From a virus, in the IMG/VR virus record IMGVR_UViG_3300030117_004379, positions 1 through 24,655 of that record: a DNA stretch of 24,655 bases. One strand, given 5' to 3'. Positions 6,130 through 20,121 of the stretch are shown piece after piece. Position 1 is the first letter of the stretch. Every line of letters starts with the position of its first letter. The notes beneath the pieces were generated by a model. The model did not search any database. It was given only the letters and a program-made list of their open reading frames with translations, and had not been told where the DNA came from. Both the position numbers and the translations under genes were made by a program.

Positions 6130-6154
6130 TAAAGTTGCGATTAAGTAATAACCT

Positions 6155-6209
6155 GTCTCATCAGGATGGGTCGGTTAGTTCCCATCGACTCCCCGAAGGG
6201 AGTTTCGAC
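6155..6209 (-). ncRNA. Type II hammerhead self-cleaving ribozyme
   Basis: Read on the minus strand the order is: stem II 3' strand GUC (6209-6207); GAA (6206-6204); A then stem III CUCCC-UUCG-GGGAG (from 6202) closed by A-U; the cleavage triplet GUC with C at 6187; stem I GAUGGG (6186-6181), 10-nt loop, CCCAUC (6170-6165); core CUGAUGA (6164-6158); stem II 5' strand GAC (6157-6155). Every conserved hammerhead core position is present, including the G10.1-C11.1 pair. The ends are open at stem II (type II). Stem II is only 3 bp but may extend by U-A pairs beyond a mismatch zone. Predicted cleavage is between 6187 and 6186. The element begins in the stop codon of the upstream gene. Confidence 0.9.
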
Positions 6210-6571
6210 TATTTAGCCATAGTCTTTACCTTTGGATTGGTATTAGATACTTCAGGTTTACCAAGTCTTTCAACAACTGCATATCTCAAACGCATTTCAG
6301 GCATTTTGAGTGTACGCATTGCTCCTTCTTGATCAACATAGTGATCTCTAATAGTGCGTCTATCGGCACTACCATGGAAGGCGACTTGTCTACCTTGAAG
6401 CTTGGCACCATCTTTATGAGCTTTATAAAGACCGTTCTTACTTCTAGCAAATACTTTGACGAGGCTATCATCAAGATCGCTAGAGATAATTTCGATCTCT
6501 AACCACTCATCTTCTCCGTTCTTAGCTAAACGAACGTAGCTGATGTTTCCAGTACCTTGTACGGTAAGCAT
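6209..6571 (-). CDS. Possible OB-fold single-strand DNA-binding protein, 120 aa
   Basis: I chose ATG 6571 (MLTVQGTGNISYVRLAKNGE) because the frame upstream lies in a hairpin-rich spacer and lacks another ATG. The strand order and the segment LQGRQVAFHGSADRRTIRDH, then YVDQEGAMRTL and RYAVVERLGK, parallel the SSB pattern (L.G..V.V.G....R.Y.D..G..R, then a strand and an L G end). In that reading it would coat ssDNA during phage replication. The C-terminal tail (NPKVKTMAK) is basic, unlike the acidic tip of bacterial SSB. The assignment is tentative. Its TAG stop begins the hammerhead element. Confidence 0.5.
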   Translation of the reverse strand: MLTVQGTGNISYVRLAKNGEDEWLEIEIISSDLDDSLVKVFARSKNGLYKAHKDGAKLQGRQVAFHGSADRRTIRDHYVDQEGAMRTLKMPEMRLRYAVVERLGKPEVSNTNPKVKTMAK

Positions 6572-6595: not shown

Positions 6596-6663
6596 GCCTA
6601 TCCCAAACGTGTAGGCAGAGAGGATGAACCCCTCAGGGAGCCAACCCTTTCGGGAATGACTCC
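6596..6663 (-). ncRNA. Structured spacer with three hairpins (H1 GAAA loop, H2 GGG-UUC loop)
   Basis: On the minus strand, H1 (6663-6637) is GGAGUC..CCC-GAAA-GGG..GGCUCC, a two-part stem capped by a GNRA loop. H2 (6633-6619) is AGGGG-UUCAU-CCUCU. H3 (6616-6596) is GCCUA, an 11-nt loop, then UAGGC. They fill the gap between the coiled-coil gene and the SSB-like gene. Four other spacers up to 8590 share the H1/H2 plan. They are not typical terminators because no U-run follows. Confidence 0.6.
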
Positions 6664-6676
6664 AGGAGAGAATCAA

Positions 6677-7270
6677 CTATAGTTCCACGTTCTTAACCCT
6701 CAATATGAAAGAGTTAATAGCTTCCTTTAAAACAGGGAGATACTTGTTTTGGAAGTCGGAAACTAGATCATTCCATTCCTTTAGATGTTCTTTCCAACGG
6801 AGGATGAAATCACTTTGGTAGCTAAGAGTATCAGTACCTAGAAGAGGAATTTTACGGACAGATTTAAGAACCTTAATTTCTTGATCAGCAATCTTTAGTA
6901 AAGATTCATTCTCATTGTTATCAGCTTTAAGCTTGTCACATTGAGAGCGAACTTTAACTAACTCTGCTTCAAGATCATTATTGGTACATTTAAGTCCTTC
7001 GATTATCTCTTCAAGAGTCTTGATATCATGGTCATGATCTTCTTTTAAAGTCTTAATTTGATTCATTTGGTTATCATTGAAACCACGTAAATCCTTAATA
7101 GTAAGCTTTAAAGAATCACATTCCTTTTGACTACCTTCGTATTCATCTTCTGATTCTTTGAGAAGAGCATAACAGAGTTGCTTATCAGCACCCAGATACT
7201 CTGGATGAGTAAAGTCAATGTTGAATTTATCAACAAGCTTTTGCTTCAACTCTTTCTTAGCTTTGTCCAT
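6677..7270 (-). CDS. Coiled-coil protein, 197 aa
   Basis: ATG at 7270, TAG at 6679-6677. From about residue 35 to 130 the sequence is continuous heptad-rich coiled coil (for example KTLKEDHDHDIKTLEEIIEG and NDLEAELVKVRSQCDKLKAD). A C-terminal globular part follows (DTLSYQSDFILRWKEHLKEW, then LPVLKEAINSFILRVKNVEL). It is probably an oligomeric cytoplasmic protein; partners and role are unknown. It sits between two structured spacers and lacks a ribosome-binding site. Confidence 0.75.
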   Translation of the reverse strand: MDKAKKELKQKLVDKFNIDFTHPEYLGADKQLCYALLKESEDEYEGSQKECDSLKLTIKDLRGFNDNQMNQIKTLKEDHDHDIKTLEEIIEGLKCTNNDLEAELVKVRSQCDKLKADNNENESLLKIADQEIKVLKSVRKIPLLGTDTLSYQSDFILRWKEHLKEWNDLVSDFQNKYLPVLKEAINSFILRVKNVEL

Positions 7271-7337
7271 AGAACAAGTAGGTATAGAACAAGCAGGGCA
7301 GAACCCTGCAGAAAGCCCACCATTGCTGGAAGGGCTT
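7269..7337 (-). ncRNA. Structured spacer with GCAA-loop hairpin, GGG-UUC hairpin and 10-bp direct repeat
   Basis: On the minus strand, H1 (7337-7313) is AAGCCC-UU-CCA-GCAA-UGG-U-GGGCUU, with a GNRA loop. H2 (7309-7293) is GCAGGG-UUCUG-CCCUGC, a perfect 6-bp stem. Two direct copies of ATAGAACAAG (plus strand 7269-7278 and 7284-7293) follow up to the next start codon. No gene fits in 7271-7347. Confidence 0.6.
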
Positions 7338-7347
7338 TGAGAAGGGA

Positions 7348-7608
7348 TCAGAGATTACATGACTTTTCCTCGTAGTAAGATCTCATGGTTTCTATTAGAT
7401 CTTTGCAACCAGACATACGACTGATTTCAAATTCTCTAGTTTCTACCATTTCGTCATAAGGAGAAAAAGTTGTAACTCTGTGATACTCCATGAGTAATGA
7501 CCTGTTGTGACTCGTACGGTTAATAACCTGAGTAGGAGCACATTGAACCCAGTCATCAGATGCTTCTGATTTGGGAGGCCAGAATTCAAGTTTGTGAGTA
7601 ATAGCCAT
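7348..7608 (-). CDS. Hypothetical protein, 86 aa
   Basis: ATG at 7608, TAA at 7350-7348. The sequence starts with a strand-like MAITHKLEFWPPKSEASDDW, then VQCAPTQVINRTSHNRSLLM, an acidic aromatic stretch (TTFSPYDEMVETREFEISRM) and a C-terminal helix (CKDLIETMRSYYEEKSCNL). Three Cys residues are not in a recognised motif. No ribosome-binding site is visible. It is flanked on both sides by structured spacers. Confidence 0.65.
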   Translation of the reverse strand: MAITHKLEFWPPKSEASDDWVQCAPTQVINRTSHNRSLLMEYHRVTTFSPYDEMVETREFEISRMSGCKDLIETMRSYYEEKSCNL

Positions 7609-7631
7609 AATAAATTAGGGGCTAAAGGACA

Positions 7632-7669
7632 AGGGGATGAACCCCTCAGTCTGCCTCCGAAGAAGCAGA
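7632..7669 (-). ncRNA. Structured spacer with UUCG-loop hairpin and GGG-UUC hairpin
   Basis: On the minus strand, H1 (7669-7650) is UCUGCUUC-UUCG-GAGGCAGA, an 8-bp stem with one G.U pair and the very stable C(UUCG)G loop. H2 (7646-7632) is AGGGG-UUCAU-CCCCU. The H2 core CUGAGGGGUUCAUCC is shared with the spacer at 6619-6636. They fill the gap between the 39-aa and 86-aa genes. Confidence 0.6.
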
Positions 7670-7678
7670 GGGAGAGGA

Positions 7679-7798
7679 TCAAGATTCAATAAAACGTAGA
7701 AGAGATTGCAATAACCTCTTCCGTGTTTCAATTTTGCGGTCTATTAAAGATCTTTGGTAGTTATCTTCAATGTCAGACCATGTGCGATCATTTTCCAT
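7679..7798 (-). CDS. Helical mini-protein, 39 aa
   Basis: ATG at 7798, TGA at 7681-7679. The product (MENDRTWSDIEDNYQRSLID, then RKIETRKRLLQSLLRFIES) is one long charged amphipathic helix. It overlaps the end of the 26-aa membrane peptide by 11 bp. The stop is followed at once by the H1 hairpin. Function unknown. Confidence 0.55.
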   Translation of the reverse strand: MENDRTWSDIEDNYQRSLIDRKIETRKRLLQSLLRFIES

Positions 7799-7868
7799 AA
7801 GCATTAATATTCTTGAGGAATATATAAAGCAGGACGATCACACAGATAAGAACTATGAAGGAGGTCAT
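7788..7868 (-). CDS. Tiny single-pass membrane peptide, 26 aa
   Basis: ATG at 7868 shares bases with the TAA of the upstream gene (TAATG), and its TGA lies inside the next gene's start region. The product MTSFIVLICVIVLLYIFLKN plus INAYGK is almost entirely one transmembrane helix with a basic, polar C-terminal end. Exact packing on both sides supports translation. It may insert into the host membrane; its role is unknown. Confidence 0.55.
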   Translation of the reverse strand: MTSFIVLICVIVLLYIFLKNINAYGK

Positions 7869-8059
7869 TAGATAACCTCCTCATGCCATGATTTAATATC
7901 AGTCGTAGGACGAATAGCATCAGCTACTTTGAAACGTAGTGAGTTCCATTTACCTGATACTTTCTGTACTACTTTGGTATTATCAATGGCATTATCAAGC
8001 TTCTCAACAGCCTGGGAAGACTTATTGAGAACAGTGCTAACGGCTTTAATAAAAGACAT
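7868..8059 (-). CDS. Hypothetical protein, 63 aa
   Basis: ATG at 8059 is the preferred start; an in-frame GTG at 8074 lies inside a hairpin and is unlikely. The sequence starts with an amphipathic helix (MSFIKAVSTVLNKSSQAVEK), followed by LDNAIDNTKVVQKVSGKWNS and LRFKVADAIRPTTDIKSWHE. The start lies 11 bp after the 8070-8088 hairpin and has no ribosome-binding site. Family unknown. Confidence 0.6.
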   Translation of the reverse strand: MSFIKAVSTVLNKSSQAVEKLDNAIDNTKVVQKVSGKWNSLRFKVADAIRPTTDIKSWHEEVI

Positions 8060-8069
8060 AGTTAAAAAG

Positions 8070-8088
8070 ACCACTCTCGTTGAGTGGT
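8070..8088 (-). terminator. Hairpin plus U-run directly before a start codon
   Basis: On the minus strand, ACCACTC-AACGA-GAGTGGT forms a perfect 7-bp stem followed by CTTTTTAAC, the shape of an intrinsic terminator. The U-run ends about 5 bp before the ATG at 8059. That is an odd place for a terminator unless transcription is attenuated or the RNA is processed here. Confidence 0.6.
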
Positions 8089-8097
8089 AATACCAAG

Positions 8098-8136
8098 GGG
8101 AGGGAGTTGAACCCTCCTTTACAGCTAAAGCTGACC
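8098..8136 (-). repeat. 39-bp direct repeat, copy 1 (two-hairpin element)
   Basis: Identical to 8550-8588. On the minus strand it holds H1 CAGC-UUUA-GCUG (8133-8122) and, 4 nt further, H2 GGAGGG-UUCAACU-CCCUCC (8117-8099). In this copy the TAG stop of the 66-aa gene (8127-8125) lies in the first hairpin. H2 looks like a tRNA T-arm (5-bp stem, TTCAACT loop), but no tRNA body surrounds it. Confidence 0.7.
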
Positions 8137-8325
8137 CTGCTTGGTAGGATAACCAAACTCTTTACAGAAATCGAGATGGTTTTGATGTAGGTGTGTAGGC
8201 CAGTCATGAGCAAGACACTGGGTACGTGTAGCTTTCTCAATGAAATGACCAGCTACTAGGGGAGTACTTAAAAGTACGACCCCATAGGTAGCAACTGTTA
8301 AAACAGTTTTGTAGGAGGTAGGCAT
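8125..8325 (-). CDS. Small membrane or secreted protein, 66 aa
   Basis: ATG at 8325 overlaps the upstream TGA (TGATG); TAG at 8127-8125 sits inside a hairpin. A hydrophobic helix (YKTVLTVATYGVVLLSTPLV) is followed by a polar, His/Cys-containing domain (CLAHDWPTHLHQNHLDFCKE). The layout suits a signal-anchored protein with its C-terminal part outside the membrane, where the two Cys could pair. Function unknown. Confidence 0.6.
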   Translation of the reverse strand: MPTSYKTVLTVATYGVVLLSTPLVAGHFIEKATRTQCLAHDWPTHLHQNHLDFCKEFGYPTKQGQL

Positions 8326-8501
8326 CACTTACCCCCTTTAAGGTTGGACCAGAACTCTCTTGCACCTGTATAGGTCAAGATTGCACAGCGGTCATAACCT
8401 TTCTGACCTTTACGTACATGTTCTTCAACCATTACGCCATTGGGTGAACCAACGTGGAAGTGGTAATGAGCCTTCTGATTATGTAAGACGTAAGTAGTCA
8501 T
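8325..8501 (-). CDS. Hypothetical protein, 58 aa
   Basis: ATG at 8501 with a strong AGGAGGA site 6-8 bp upstream; TGA overlaps the next ATG. The sequence is strand-rich at the start (MTTYVLHNQKAHYHFHVGSP), then basic (EEHVRKGQKGYDRCAILTYT) with a short final helix (GAREFWSNLKGGK). No family recognised. Unlike most genes after structured spacers in this stretch, it has a clear ribosome-binding site. Confidence 0.65.
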   Translation of the reverse strand: MTTYVLHNQKAHYHFHVGSPNGVMVEEHVRKGQKGYDRCAILTYTGAREFWSNLKGGK

Positions 8502-8522
8502 AGGATTCCTCCTGTGTGCAGT

Positions 8523-8541
8523 GCCTATCTCTGCTGAAGGC
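8523..8541 (-). other. Third hairpin of the 8504-8596 spacer
   Basis: GCCT (8523-8526) and AGGC (8538-8541) flank an 11-nt loop. Together with the 39-bp repeat at 8550-8588 it mirrors the three-hairpin order at 8070-8136, although this third stem is shorter and lacks a U-run. Confidence 0.4.
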
Positions 8542-8549
8542 GATACCGA

Positions 8550-8588
8550 GGGAGGGAGTTGAACCCTCCTTTACAGCTAAAGCTGACC
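8550..8588 (-). repeat. 39-bp direct repeat, copy 2 (two-hairpin element)
   Basis: Identical to 8098-8136, 452 bp away. H1 is at 8585-8574 and H2 at 8569-8551. Here the element begins 9 bp after the TGA of the 71-aa gene, so it is fully intergenic. Perfect identity, at least in the part not constrained by coding, suggests a recent duplication or conserved RNA function. Confidence 0.7.
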
Positions 8589-8596
8589 AAACTCAG

Positions 8597-8812
8597 TTAA
8601 AAGGGAACAGGACCAAGCTCTTTAACAGTAAAGTTCTTAGTCTTATCTCTTGCTGTTTTCCATGCATACTTAATAGCGTCATCTCGATCCAAGAAAAAAC
8701 GAGCAGTATTTCGAGTATCAAATTGGACACCGTACCGTATGTCACGAGTATCATCATCCAATACAAAATGGAATGATGAACCATCAGGGAAACGCCAAGC
8801 CTTTACATACAT
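8597..8812 (-). CDS. Small alpha/beta hypothetical protein, 71 aa
   Basis: I chose ATG 8812 (MYVKAWRFPDGSSFHFVLDD) because GAGG lies about 10 bp upstream; the frame could extend to 8857 but would then overlap the preceding gene. Strands (DIRYGVQFDTRNTARFFLD) are followed by a helix (DDAIKYAWKTARDKTK) and a last strand. The layout is compatible with a small open-faced sheet. Function unknown. Confidence 0.65.
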   Translation of the reverse strand: MYVKAWRFPDGSSFHFVLDDDTRDIRYGVQFDTRNTARFFLDRDDAIKYAWKTARDKTKNFTVKELGPVPF

Positions 8813-8822
8813 AATGAATACC

Positions 8823-8966
8823 TCAATTAGTAGGAACGTATGAGTGCCATGAGCCACTGTAGTGATGTGTGACTAAAGCCATGCCAATAGCAAAGATTGC
8901 AAATGGAATTGGATAGTCATCAATCATGTAGCTAATGCCAGCGAGAATACGTTGAATTGATTTCAT
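8823..8966 (-). CDS. Small membrane protein, 47 aa
   Basis: ATG at 8966 (MKSIQRILAGISYMIDDYPI). A hydrophobic segment (PFAIFAIGMALVTHHY) follows, then a polar aromatic end (SGSWHSYVPTN). The basic start and single helix suggest a membrane peptide. It is the first gene of the leftward block, so its upstream region should contain the main leftward promoter. No ribosome-binding site visible. Confidence 0.55.
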   Translation of the reverse strand: MKSIQRILAGISYMIDDYPIPFAIFAIGMALVTHHYSGSWHSYVPTN

Positions 8967-9160: not shown

Positions 9161-9390
9161 TGTATATTGTTACAATCCTTTACATTCCAGTGGTCATACA
9201 AGGATGGTCTATATACCCTTTCTTTTTTTTCTTTCCAGGTTTGCATTCGGGAGACAGGTGTGTTACCCGTCAGGAAATTTTGTTCCCTATTTGGGCCATA
9301 CACGGTTTTTTCGTTGAACAAAAAGTCTAATTTTGTACTAAAAATCCCTAATTAGCCCAAGAATGGGGCCAAAAGTGTGCAAAGTGCAAG
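9161..9390. other. Non-coding divergent region, right part, with hairpins and a T-tract
   Basis: Contains an imperfect hairpin GACAGGT-GTGTT-ACCCGTC (9253-9271, one A.C mismatch) followed by GGAA..TTCC (9273-9286), a T8 run at 9223-9230 and TGTA..TACA arms (9161-9174). Overlapping frames on both strands here lack ribosome-binding sites and convincing composition, so I treat the stretch as non-coding. Confidence 0.4.
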
Positions 9391-9412
9391 AAAAAAGTAT
9401 TACTTAGTAATA
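9391..9412 (-). terminator. AT-rich hairpin with U-run after the 9414-9623 gene
   Basis: On the minus strand, TATTAC-TAA-GTAATA is followed by CTTTTTT, immediately past the TAA at 9416-9414. The stem is weak but the position and U-run fit an intrinsic terminator, which would stop leftward transcription before the DnaA-box array. Confidence 0.5.
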
Positions 9413-9413
9413 A

Positions 9414-9623
9414 TTATTTTTTAGATTTCTTATATGTGTCGGCTGCTTTTACGGCTTTTCTAAATGCATCTTCATCTGGAAGGTTAAATGCTAATTCTTT
9501 CTTACCTTCGTCTATAAAATCACGAACTTCCCCATCCGTCTTACCATCGGCTGCCATTTGTAGGGCTTTACCTTTAATTGCTTCTAGTCCTTCGACTCTT
9601 TTTTGCCTTGTTCCAGCGTCCAT
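9414..9623 (-). CDS. Helical hypothetical protein, 69 aa
   Basis: ATG at 9623 (MDAGTRQKRVEGLEAIKGKA). The whole product is polar and helical (ALQMAADGKTDGEVRDFIDE, then FRKAVKAADTYKKSKK) with a lysine-rich tail. It stands alone between the origin-like array and the late module, divergent from the 910-codon gene. Position and basic tail would suit a small DNA-binding regulator, but no helix-turn-helix can be shown. Confidence 0.6.
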   Translation of the reverse strand: MDAGTRQKRVEGLEAIKGKALQMAADGKTDGEVRDFIDEGKKELAFNLPDEDAFRKAVKAADTYKKSKK

Positions 9624-12457: not shown

Positions 12458-12685
12458 ATGGCTAATAAAAAGAAAAAGGATAAAAAGAAAAAAGAATGGA
12501 TTGGAGATGCAATCGAACGTCCTGGTACTTTTACAGCTAAGGCTAAAAAGAAAGGAATAACATCTGCACAGCTTCAAGAAAACGTTTTATCTAATCCTGA
12601 TGATTACGATGAAAAGACTGTAAAACAAGCGAACTTACGTAAGACATTAGTTAGAGTAAATAAAAATAAGAAATCTAAAAAATAA
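12458..12685 (+). CDS. Lysine-rich mini-protein, 75 aa
   Basis: ATG at 12458, 2 bp after the 910-codon gene. It has a run of Lys at the start (MANKKKKDKKKKEWIGDAIE), then RPGTFTAKAKKKGITSAQLQ and a basic end (RVNKNKKSKK). The central RPG.[FL]TAKAKK.G motif is one I associate with short basic proteins encoded among podovirus-like structural genes. The likely role is nucleic-acid binding or DNA condensation in the virion, inferred from charge. Its stop overlaps the next ATG (TAATG). Confidence 0.75.
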   Translation: MANKKKKDKKKKEWIGDAIERPGTFTAKAKKKGITSAQLQENVLSNPDDYDEKTVKQANLRKTLVRVNKNKKSKK

Positions 12686-13347
12686 TGGTAAAAGACGCTC
12701 GCTTTGATTTAGGCAGATACGTTAGTAATCCTTTTAATAAAAGAGGACATATACCGAAACGACTAGATTTTAATGAACTGTTTGTATCAAAAGCTAAGGA
12801 AGGAGAATATCCTTGGAACCCTTCACGATTTGGTTCAAGCGATTTATTAAAGAAAGCACAAAGCAGAAAGATGACTCTGAACCCAGAGTTAAACTTTGTC
12901 GGTAATTCTCCTTTCTTTGATCAAGATGGGGAGCAAATGGCTCCTAATGATTATGAAATGTTTGAAGGTCTTGGAAGATTTAAAAGACCTTTTGATTATG
13001 ACTTTGAAGAAGGCAGAGCACGTACTAATAATCGACCACAAACACAGCCAGATTTTAATCCTGAATGGATGGAAGCTTATCGTTTAAGTCCAACTTTAAA
13101 TCCTGGAGAAATGTCGAAGAACCCAATGCCTCGCATGCGTGACCCTGATCCAAATGGTTACTTAATGGCAATGGCAGAACAACGTGCAAAATCAGAAGTT
13201 GAAGATGATCCAGATATATCTGATCTACTAGCTAGAGGTAATCAAGTTGTATCTGAACAGAAAGCAGCAACGGAACAAAAGGAAGGACAAGAAACAGTTG
13301 AAGAAGCTGAGAGTAGTCCAGATAAAATAAAAGGAACGGAGAAATAG
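12685..13347 (+). CDS. Probable virion-associated protein, 220 aa
   Basis: ATG at 12685 overlaps the upstream stop. The sequence is Pro/Asn/Arg-rich with little predicted core (DLGRYVSNPFNKRGHIPKRL, then GLGRFKRPFDYDFEEGRART and SPTLNPGEMSKNPMPRMRDP). The C-terminus is a long acidic, Glu/Gln-rich helix. It may be a flexible linker or scaffold-like factor. No family recognised. It is followed 1 bp later by the next gene. Confidence 0.7.
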   Translation: MVKDARFDLGRYVSNPFNKRGHIPKRLDFNELFVSKAKEGEYPWNPSRFGSSDLLKKAQSRKMTLNPELNFVGNSPFFDQDGEQMAPNDYEMFEGLGRFKRPFDYDFEEGRARTNNRPQTQPDFNPEWMEAYRLSPTLNPGEMSKNPMPRMRDPDPNGYLMAMAEQRAKSEVEDDPDISDLLARGNQVVSEQKAATEQKEGQETVEEAESSPDKIKGTEK

Positions 13348-16771: not shown

Positions 16772-18265
16772 ATGACTTGTTCACTTACACATCTAAATGT
16801 TCTTTTGGCTGATGGGGAAACTAAACCTATCGGTCATTTAAAAGTAGGCGATAAAGTCGATACATTACATCAAGAAAGTTTTAAGCGTGGTAAATATAAA
16901 ATCCTTTCTATTAAGAAGGAAAAGTCTAAGTTACTTGCTTTAGATTTTGAAGGAGAAAAGATTGAATGTTATCCTAACCATCGCTTCTATTGTGAAAACA
17001 AACGTAAGTGGATTAAGGCTAAAGATTTAAACAGAGGAACTAAAGTACTTGGTTTAGATGGATATATTGAATTTACTGATCGTAAAAAGATTGGTGAAGG
17101 TGAGGTTATTCATTTAGATGTAGAAGGAGCACATACCTATGTTTCAGGTAAAGTTCTTTCTCATAACAAAGGTAACGTTACATATAATCCACCACCTCCA
17201 CCACCACCTGATAAGACTTTTGAAAACTATTTAAAGTATCAAAGGGAAAGAGATGAAGATGCAGAGTATAGAGATTGGCTAGGTGGTATTCAAAAGTATA
17301 AAGGTCAGAAAGGAAAACAAACTTCTGGTAGATCTGGATGGGATGCACATAAAGCAAGTGTACAAAATAAATTAAGTAAGAATTTAATTAGCTTTACACA
17401 AGCTGAAAAAGAATTAAAGGATTACGCTACTGATTACAACTTAGCTGCTGGAAGTATTAATTATTCTGGTGGTGATGATCCACGTCAGATGTGGGATCGT
17501 TATAAAGATAAAGATGCTCCTGAAGGTGGATGGACAACTTCTCCAACTTATGAAACACCAGATAGATGGAAAAATTGGAGTGTTAATAAAGCTTTAGGTG
17601 AGTTAGGTACTTTCTATCATGGTGGTGCTGCTACAACAGGTGGTACGACTGGTGGTACGACTGGTGGTACGACTGGAGGAACGACAGGAGGAACAACTGG
17701 TGGTGGTTTATTAGGACAAAGAAGAGATACAAATATCAAAGCAGCCTATGAAGAAATCTTAGGTCGTTCTGGTACTGCTGATGAAATAGCTAAAGCTAAA
17801 GAAAGATTTGGTTCTGGCTATTATTCTGATATTGATAGTTTTAAAACAGGTCTTACTTCAAGTTCTGAGTACAAGGATAAATTCCAACGTAGTTATTTAG
17901 AAAACTACTACGATACGATGTATGGCAAAGAGGAAAGAGATGCCTCTGGAGCACGTACAGGTACACGTACATTTAACTTTGATAAATCACTACTGCCAAG
18001 TTACTCAGGTGACTTAGAAGGTGATACAGGCGTTAAGATGCCTGATTGGAAAGATCAATATAAAGGTACTCCTGCAGAGATTGACTTTGCAATGGATAAC
18101 ATACGTGAATCACGTAAGTTCCTCTATAGTGCTGGCTTAACTAACTTACAAGGAAGTATTGATAAAGAAGTTCAAAAACTTAAGAACGAAGGTGGTAAGG
18201 AAATTACTAGGATTGGTAAAGAAGGCGATATGTATGCAAGTGTCGTTAACGCATTTAATTTCTAG
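16772..18265 (+). CDS. Protein with N-terminal Hint (intein-like) domain and a DUF4214-like segment, 497 aa
   Basis: ATG at 16772, 2 bp after the previous gene. Residues 3-132 form a Hint domain: C3 with SLTHLNVLLADG..IGHLKVGD.V, a block-B-like CYPNHRF (H70) and a terminal VLSHN (H131, N132). C3 and N132 are the catalytic positions of inteins and Hedgehog/BIL domains. The residue after N132 is Lys, not Cys/Ser/Thr, and only two residues precede C3, so splicing is unlikely but cleavage at N132 is possible. Downstream come seven prolines, a Thr/Gly repeat (about residues 289-312) and a segment like DUF4214 (AAYEEILGRSGTADEIAKAK, then GLTSSSEYKDKF). It is probably a virion surface or tail protein released or matured by the Hint domain. 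Confidence 0.8.
   Translation: MTCSLTHLNVLLADGETKPIGHLKVGDKVDTLHQESFKRGKYKILSIKKEKSKLLALDFEGEKIECYPNHRFYCENKRKWIKAKDLNRGTKVLGLDGYIEFTDRKKIGEGEVIHLDVEGAHTYVSGKVLSHNKGNVTYNPPPPPPPDKTFENYLKYQRERDEDAEYRDWLGGIQKYKGQKGKQTSGRSGWDAHKASVQNKLSKNLISFTQAEKELKDYATDYNLAAGSINYSGGDDPRQMWDRYKDKDAPEGGWTTSPTYETPDRWKNWSVNKALGELGTFYHGGAATTGGTTGGTTGGTTGGTTGGTTGGGLLGQRRDTNIKAAYEEILGRSGTADEIAKAKERFGSGYYSDIDSFKTGLTSSSEYKDKFQRSYLENYYDTMYGKEERDASGARTGTRTFNFDKSLLPSYSGDLEGDTGVKMPDWKDQYKGTPAEIDFAMDNIRESRKFLYSAGLTNLQGSIDKEVQKLKNEGGKEITRIGKEGDMYASVVNAFNF
17636..17707 (+). repeat. 12-bp tandem repeat (six copies) encoding Thr-Gly-Gly-Thr
   Basis: Six in-frame 12-bp units of the type ACTGGTGGTACG lie in the 16772 gene. Three are identical or nearly so; the others differ at third positions or by single bases. 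They encode a flexible TGGT linker and can expand or contract without shifting frame. Confidence 0.85.
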
Positions 18266-19284: not shown

Positions 19285-20121
19285 ATGGGTGCTGAAAGAA
19301 CACAAAAAGGTGCAGTAGGACAACAGTTAGCAGCATCTGGTAGAGCTAGAAGAGCTGAAAAGATTCGTCGGGATGAAACTGGAGGAGGACCAAATATTGG
19401 TAGAGATGTATCTAGAGGAGTAATGGAAGATCAGATGCTTAGGAATGATCAAGAAGGAAAGCAAAAACAAGGAAAAGGAGGCAGACCAGGCAAGCCTATT
19501 GATCGTAGACCAATGCCAGAAAAACCACCTAGAGATACTGGTTTTAAAGACTATAAAGAAATAGGAGGTAGACCATCTAAGCCACCTAGAGATACTGGTT
19601 TTCAAGATTATAAAGAAGGAAGACCTTTTGAACCACCAATGGATGGTAGACCTCCAAGTAGACCAATCAGGGGAGATGATCAGTATGGTCCAGGCAGACC
19701 AGGCAGACCAATAGGAGATGATAACTGGGCAACTTTACCTTATTTCCCTGGAAAGGGACCTATGCCTGGTATACCAGAGAAACCTATTGGTGGCAGACCT
19801 CCTGTAGAGAAACACCCTTGGGGTAGAGAAGATGATCCTAACTATGGTAGGAAAAAAGATGCATGGCATCAAAGAAGAAAAGAAATGGAAATGAAGAGAA
19901 AAGAAGATATGTGGAGAAGAGCAAAAGAAAGAAGAGGCGGTACTGATCTAGGTCCAGGTAGAGGAGATCGTTTACCAGAAGATCCTTATTTCTCTCAAGA
20001 TAGATTTGATGCTTTCAAACAACAAGGTGGTCAAAATTTAGAAAGACCAGGAGCAGCAGCTACAACTCTTCAAGATTTTATGGCACAAATGGCTAACCTA
20101 CGTGGTGGAGGAATGAGATAA
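19285..20121 (+). CDS. Disordered Arg/Pro/Gly-rich protein, 278 aa
   Basis: ATG at 19285. The whole protein is low-complexity and basic, with GGRPGKPIDRRPMPEKPPRD and many GRP/PPR motifs, no hydrophobic core, and a helical Arg/Lys/Met-rich zone (RRKEMEMKRKEDMWRRAKER). Residues about 80-117 are a 19-residue tandem repeat starting KPPRDTGF. The last 25 residues (ATTLQDFMAQMANLRGGGM) look ordered. It may be a nucleic-acid-binding or assembly factor. No family recognised. Confidence 0.65.
   Translation: MGAERTQKGAVGQQLAASGRARRAEKIRRDETGGGPNIGRDVSRGVMEDQMLRNDQEGKQKQGKGGRPGKPIDRRPMPEKPPRDTGFKDYKEIGGRPSKPPRDTGFQDYKEGRPFEPPMDGRPPSRPIRGDDQYGPGRPGRPIGDDNWATLPYFPGKGPMPGIPEKPIGGRPPVEKHPWGREDDPNYGRKKDAWHQRRKEMEMKRKEDMWRRAKERRGGTDLGPGRGDRLPEDPYFSQDRFDAFKQQGGQNLERPGAAATTLQDFMAQMANLRGGGMR
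19525..19638 (+). repeat. 57-bp tandem repeat (two copies) in the Arg/Pro-rich gene
   Basis: Two adjacent 57-bp units start at 19525 and 19582. Their first 21 bases are identical; later bases diverge. Each encodes PPRDTGF[KQ]DYKE followed by GRP. Confidence 0.7.

Follow-up and report, generated by a model that had tools for sequence, protein, structure and literature searches.

A 24,655-nucleotide (nt) stretch of viral DNA, IMG/VR record IMGVR_UViG_3300030117_004379 (hereafter, the window), carries two copies of a phage RNA element built like one half of a tRNA, the acceptor with the T-arm, as shown by comparison of its intergenic spacers at 8551 and 8099 with related phages. The element family is large, absent from Rfam and invisible to ARAGORN; we found no previous description in the open-licence literature, and the family appears not to have been described before. 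The element probably marks where the message is cut or where its ends are protected. The window itself is an S-EIV1-like cyanophage contig; its terminase shares approximately 80% identity with the one from Synechococcus phage S-EIV1, and IMG/VR is rich in close relatives of this terminase. An earlier note on the window had proposed that five consecutive minus-strand spacers, at 8551, 8099, 7632, 7271 and 6596, share a single plan of two hairpins (hereafter, H1 and H2). All five hairpin pairs can indeed be drawn, but only the first two spacers are tRNA-like, whereas the other three follow a different plan, designated type B below; the stem that encloses both hairpins at 8551 and 8099 had been missed.

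In the minimum-free-energy folds of the 8551 and 8099 spacers, an acceptor-like stem of 6–7 base pairs (bp) encloses H1 and H2. H2 is a T-arm, GGAGGG-UUCAACU-CCCUCC, whose 7-nt loop and abutment on the 3′ strand of the acceptor reproduce the arrangement in a tRNA; where a tRNA has its D and anticodon arms, the element has a variable linker or hairpin H1. Copy 1 (8545–8597, minus strand) pairs acceptor strands ACUGAG (8597–8592) and CUCGGU (8550–8545) around a 22-nt linker (8591–8570) that contains H1, CAGC-UUUA-GCUG, and a T-arm with strands at 8569–8564 and 8556–8551 and loop at 8563–8557; A8544 occupies the position of a would-be discriminator base. This copy scores 82 bits with our covariance model R1 and is supported by covariation. 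The last A of the UAA stop codon (8597–8599) of the upstream open reading frame (ORF; 8597–8857) is also nucleotide 1 of the acceptor. Downstream lies a further hairpin, H3 (8518–8541, stem GCCU/AGGC), with a predicted pseudoknot between GCAG (8534–8531) and CUGC (8521–8518) that shows covariation in related copies, followed by AGGAGG (8513–8508) and an AUG (8501–8499). Copy 2 (8091–8146, minus strand; fold z-score −3.58) has the same H1 and T-arm (8117–8099), with one extra C between the T-arm and the 3′ strand of the acceptor. Its upstream stop, UAG (8127–8125), falls within the H1 loop region, and its H3, ACCACUC-AACGA-GAGUGGU (8070–8088), precedes CUUUUUAACU and an AUG (8059–8057). The two copies have an identical stretch of 39 nt in common, and their acceptors differ in a compensatory manner, ACUGAG/CUCGGU in copy 1 becoming UACCAAG (8146–8140)/CUUGGUA (8097–8091) in copy 2.

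The resemblance to tRNA is partial. A 7-nt T-loop and a stack of 12 bp are present (the sum of the two stems is mostly 11–13, with a mode of 12), whereas the D and anticodon arms are missing, with a linker of 8–37 nt in their place, and the acceptor has 4–8 bp rather than 7. The linker contains a D-loop-like GG, a tRNA trait that is suggestive only. Neither the window nor any of six cyanophage isolates has a canonical tRNA gene according to ARAGORN, and Rfam gave no match in the window at its gathering threshold. A transfer-messenger RNA, with its tRNA-like domain and tag frame, was likewise not seen by Rfam or ARAGORN; the only match was a 17-nt fragment scoring 14.1 bits in one relative (L213).

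Compensatory change extends far beyond the two copies in the window. R1, which was built on 15 copies and whose E-values, like those of R2, are rough, gave 51 matches in the fetched loci, the weakest of which are possibly due to chance; matches occur in 19 of 35 records, nearly all of them S-EIV1-like, and S-EIV1-like contigs hold approximately 50 copies. These copies diverge widely in stem sequence and retain the same plan. The R1 set contains 22 changes on both sides of a pair, compared with 7.6 after shuffling, and the R2 set contains 95, compared with 28. When 30 diverse copies are aligned, the share of paired cells is 96.7%, compared with 77.2% for shuffled partners and 29–53% for slid partners. 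All of these counts are per sequence and not per evolutionary event, and they are inflated by relatedness, the IMG/VR contigs being partly redundant. In a further subclass the H1 loop is AUCAUAG and its stem CUGG/CCAG, CGGG/CCCG or UCGG/CCGA. Judged from sequence comparison, the covariation of the element is overwhelming. The earlier note had read its five spacers as different stem sequences keeping one shape; for the 8551 and 8099 elements this was correct, and covariation with related phages makes the case far stronger than had been claimed.

One subclass, class C, is defined by the linker AUCCGUNNAAGCGGGU and the T-loop UGCAAAC and comprises at least 120 stretches in IMG/VR among the matches listed, 104 of them distinct. 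The search patterns fix the specified bases, whose invariance is therefore by construction, and only the free positions count as evidence. Each of the five outer T-stem pairs, left free in the pattern, is paired in 104 of the 104 distinct listed copies, with 4–6 pair types per position, compared with means of 45–84 paired out of 104 when the partners are shuffled. These outer pairs include 11 G–U and no A–C. All accepted matches have the coding-strand orientation. A stem finder returned 43 sense and 0 antisense matches in the S-EIV1-like loci, 14 and 0 in the isolates, and none in shuffled sequences; because it scores stems and T-loop, it favours tRNA-like folds by design, so the strand asymmetry and the shuffles serve as its controls. 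Restriction to the sense strand, together with G–U pairs in the absence of A–C, speaks for an RNA of the coding strand.

The lengths of the two stems are linked. Acceptor and T-stem each span 4–8 bp, yet their sum, left free between 8 and 17, is 11 in 10, 12 in 22, 13 in 9 and 14 in 2 of the 43 sense-strand matches. The AUCAUAG subclass reaches a sum of 12 in 14 of its 15 copies, by 5 + 7, 6 + 6 or 7 + 5. In tRNA, acceptor and T-stem also add up to 12 (7 + 5). Such a trade-off between stem lengths is the pattern expected if enzymes measure the distance from the T-loop to the acceptor end, the recognition step that we propose.

The elements are found where small genes adjoin, in the coding-strand orientation, and most overlap the upstream stop codon. 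In class C, the trinucleotide before UCCG, which is free in the pattern, is a stop codon in all 104 distinct listed copies (UGA in 97, UAA in 7). In 105 of 119 listed copies the frame upstream of it stays open for at least 40 codons or continues past the contig end; the median length is 83 codons, compared with 10 in the other frames. Nearly all upstream stops in the S-EIV1-like set fall between −16 and +21 of acceptor nucleotide 1. The deposited coding sequence (CDS) ends agree for S-SBP1 (end 1330), AP013538 and one S-EIV1 copy (CDS 43496–43732); the other S-EIV1 copy lies approximately 50 nt beyond the annotated stop. Downstream, an H3 hairpin or pseudoknot is followed by an AUG, mostly 31–48 nt from the acceptor. 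Pairing between the H3 loop and its tail is found in 58 of 58 parsed copies (of 121 listed), compared with 38.4 after shuffling, and uses five pair types (GCGG/CCGC in 40, GUGG/CCAC in 10, CAGG/CCUG in 5, GCAG/CUGC in 2 and AGGG/CCCU in 1), which points to a probable H-type pseudoknot. This pseudoknot, which is not in Rfam, adjoins a Shine–Dalgarno-like sequence and a start codon in about half of the listed class C copies. Inspection spoke against read-through of the stop codon to the following gene, as the downstream frame closes early in some copies, for example in S-EIV1.

Beyond S-EIV1-like contigs, R1 or R2 matches occur in the isolates S-EIV1 (two), S-SBP1 (two by R2, with one more from the stem finder), P-SSP7 and S-CBP42. 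Five elements occupy spacers between small genes in S-CBP42, and four of them begin 7–14 nt past annotated stops. Weaker R1 matches lie just upstream of the major capsid gene in Syn5 and P60; the one in P60 is uncertain, having a non-standard loop read by eye, and a separate stem-finder match inside a coding gene of P60 is probably due to chance. An element upstream of the major capsid gene recurs in several genera of T7-like cyanophages, at 19297 in S-SBP1 (L353), 20631 in P-SSP7 (L356), 19839 in Syn5 (L355) and 3209 in S-CBP42 (L354), with the weak match in P60 at 17027 (L359). No elements were found in T7 or in positions 1–50000 of P-SSM2, and the class C pattern, an exact pattern for one subclass, had 0 matches in 84,980 bacterial and archaeal species genomes. 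A blastn search of phage records with a window copy gave no match, whereas an S-EIV1 copy as query did match. A T-arm pattern scan of IMG/VR was unspecific, many of its matches being apparently real tRNAs.

At another junction of the same operon, the window carries a type II hammerhead (6149–6213, minus strand), which the earlier note had placed just downstream of its five spacers and which proves to be real. It has the conserved core (CUGAUGA and GAAA), three stems, with stem II open and stem III closed by UUCG, and a pseudoknot between loop I and the 3′ tail (UAACC/GGUUA); the predicted cut falls between 6187 and 6186, and the upstream stop UAG (6211–6209) overlaps stem II. All 19 pairs, including the pseudoknot, are kept in seven sequences (the window and six relatives), with six pairs changed on both sides and the core CUGANGA/GAAA retained. 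The window does not reach the threshold of Rfam RF02276, whereas the homolog in L222 passes it with 37.5 versus 37 bits. Clustered hammerheads that flank prophage genes have been proposed to cut long phage transcripts into single-gene mRNAs (PMC3088659).

The type B spacers consist of a stop codon, a pyrimidine strand, H1 and an H2 with a loop of 4–6 nt, without an acceptor or a T-loop; an acceptor stem was sought by eye in all three and none was found. On the minus strand, B3 (7630–7681) comprises UGA (7681–7679), the pyrimidine strand, H1 (7668–7651) and H2 (7648–7630, with the 5-nt loop UUCAU); B2 (7293–7350) comprises UGA (7350–7348), H1 (7338–7312) and H2 (7309–7293); and B1 (6618–6679) comprises UAG (6679–6677), H1 (6663–6637) and H2 (6634–6618), followed by a GCCUA/UAGGC hairpin. 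The likeness of H2 to a T-arm, seen by the earlier note in every spacer, therefore holds at 8551 and 8099, with their 7-nt T-loop, but not in these three or in most of their relatives. Counted by itself, the GGG-UUC motif that linked the five is weak evidence: the window has 10 occurrences of GGGTTC where 6.2 would be expected, and at least as many turn up in 7 of 100 shuffles. Both hairpins appear in the minimum-free-energy fold at 8551, 8099 and 7271, whereas H2 is lost at 7632 and H1, with H2 kept, at 6596. H1 stems of type B vary in a compensatory manner between relatives, as in B2 (AAAGCCC/GGGCUUU, GGAGCCUA/UAGGUUCC and GGAGCCUG/CAGGUUCC), where the stem is replaced compensatorily in L221 and L225. 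The pyrimidine strand after the stop can pair with the 5′ strand of H2 in competition with H2, in the window and also in L227 (about 6720–6655, minus strand). The predicted fold at 7632 uses this alternative, pairing the H2 5′ strand GAGGGG with the upstream CCUCUC and forming no H2, and the type B spacers may on this folding model be two-state (bistable) elements, possibly translation-coupled switches. The position-equivalent spacer of S-EIV1, read by eye, has two hairpins without GGGUUC and seems to keep a competing pairing, CUGCA/UGCAG.

Taken together, anatomy and genomic context make mRNA punctuation the best-supported reading of the tRNA-like element, and we give it roughly an even chance: the tRNA mimic would recruit host tRNA-processing enzymes, likeliest for an RNase Z-type 3′ cut. 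The earlier note had suggested mRNA-processing or stability elements, which agrees with this reading except that the five spacers are not one set. Placement at gene junctions, restriction to the sense strand, the ruler of approximately 12 bp and the hammerhead in the same operon all argue for punctuation. The element would draw host enzymes to a polycistronic phage transcript, which would most likely be cut past the single unpaired base that follows the acceptor on its 3′ side. The upstream message would then retain its stop and acquire a tRNA-like 3′ end that would resist 3′ exonucleases and could receive CCA, and the downstream message would begin with H3 as a protective structure at its 5′ terminus. 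A 3′ cut is favoured because the stop lies in the acceptor, so that the upstream gene would be damaged by a 5′ cut; in phages whose stop precedes the acceptor, such as S-CBP42, RNase P could cut too. The hammerhead, and perhaps the type B hairpins, would serve a comparable role at other junctions. Both RNase P and a single RNase Z are present in cyanobacteria (PMC10989914), and some mRNAs, that of T4 gene 32 among them, are targets of RNase P (PMC11143913).

Several points weigh against this reading. The acceptor often has only 4–6 bp, compared with 7 in tRNA. Most S-EIV1-like copies continue after the stem with 1–2 bases and then UU and A or G, but most S-CBP42 copies lack the UU. The chief objection is that RNase Z from two archaea required a matured 5′ end in vitro (PMC7479834), and an embedded element would have no such end unless RNase P cut first, at the cost of the upstream stop in most S-EIV1-like copies. 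In addition, a translational role would likewise be compatible with the tight overlap with the stop codon and with the position of H3 beside the start codon. An element that stays uncut and acts in translation, its folding coupled to ribosome release through the stop in the fold, its H3 or pseudoknot controlling the next start, or the whole bound by a phage or host protein, is possible, if somewhat unlikely. It would account for the stop inside the fold in most S-EIV1-like copies and for the H3 loop–tail pairing next to a Shine–Dalgarno-like sequence and an AUG at its usual distance; it leaves the stop outside the fold in S-CBP42 unexplained and gives no reason for the T-loop or for an 11–13-bp ruler with a trade-off between stems.

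Among the small substrates known for RNase P are stacked acceptor/T-arm structures, and excision led by RNase P as in mitochondrial tRNA punctuation, with a 5′ cut followed by a 3′ cut by RNase Z that frees the element, would suit an RNase Z that depends on prior 5′ maturation. Such a 5′ cut would be harmless in S-CBP42, where the elements begin 7–14 nt past the stop, but it would switch off the upstream gene in most S-EIV1-like copies by removing its stop, which selection on that gene should oppose, and we consider this route decidedly unlikely. Very improbable is an explanation at the DNA level, in which the elements would be either repeats that recombination maintains and that shuffle the small gene modules, or intrinsic terminators. 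Copies within a genome can be nearly identical, as over the 39 nt in the window, the gene modules surrounding the elements vary among relatives, and U-runs follow a few H3 hairpins; however, the elements keep to the coding strand, the class C T-stem tolerates G–U and not A–C, pairing is kept while stem sequences differ, and most copies have no U-run. That the elements are degenerate, functionless phage tRNA genes is scarcely credible and as a general account is refuted by the covariation: T-arm sequences such as GGGTTCAACTCCC do occur in apparent real phage tRNAs, but more than 100 copies covary strongly, lack an anticodon arm, go unrecognized by ARAGORN and sit regularly at gene junctions.

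Known tools of bacterial viruses for cutting their messages are RNase III and perhaps hammerheads, and tRNA mimics at gene junctions, if punctuation is right, would be a further way for phages to divide them. More broadly, and with slightly less than even confidence, we propose that in at least two lineages cyanophages have a phage-specific system of tRNA mimics, many fused to stop codons and accompanied by protective hairpins or pseudoknots, which splits polycistrons into single mRNAs through host tRNA-processing enzymes, alongside self-cleaving ribozymes in the same operons. This could explain how small cyanophage genes give separate, stable messages during induction of the host RNase E gene, as reported for P-SSP7 (PMC10989914). 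The elements are also natural minimal tRNA mimics for studying the recognition of acceptor and T-arm by RNase P, RNase Z and the CCA enzyme.

The operon that contains the elements belongs to a set of small genes running leftwards on the minus strand from about 9620; structural-type genes occupy the plus strand from 9723. This left operon is kept in relatives (L123, L124/L221 and L035/L220, among others), and several of its junctions carry an RNA element, tRNA-like, type B or hammerhead, that starts at or near the stop codon. Ahead of it, at about 9290–9430 (minus strand), lies a conserved non-coding stretch, GGGCTAATTAGGGATTTTTAGTACAAAATTAGACTTTTTGTTC, that also stands at the operon start in L221, L225 and L222 and may be a promoter or regulatory region. 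Elsewhere, 9413–9433 and 12666–12686 are perfect inverted copies of 21 nt at gene ends on opposite strands, with the same C-terminal coding sequence, and a gene in the structural region holds 12-bp tandem repeats (17626–17709).

Among known systems, the t-elements of plant mitochondria, which are cut by RNase P and RNase Z and CCA-tailed, are likewise tRNA-like folds at mRNA ends that are met by tRNA-processing enzymes (PMC11658184). As with t-elements, the tRNA-like fold of the phage element lies at gene boundaries, here those of ORFs. The phage element differs in keeping only acceptor and T-arm, in its phage carrier, in often containing a stop codon and in that its cleavage is predicted, and no homology to a full-cloverleaf tRNA gene of the t-element kind was seen. 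The Tymovirus tRNA-like structure of plant RNA viruses (RF00233) has the T-loop UGCAACU in common with several phage copies, for which we likewise propose a 3′ tRNA mimic on a viral message; its acceptor is pseudoknotted, whereas that of the phage element is an ordinary stem in an intercistronic, multi-copy setting. The best score with RF00233 is 24.4 bits against a threshold of 40, and other weak Rfam matches were uninformative. In T7, which like several element carriers belongs to the Autographiviridae, RNase III sites between genes divide the polycistronic mRNA; these sites are double-stranded hairpins, whereas the elements described here are tRNA-like and were not found in T7. Clustered phage hammerheads are gene-junction elements as well, one of them in this very operon, whereas the tRNA-like elements belong to no known ribozyme class.

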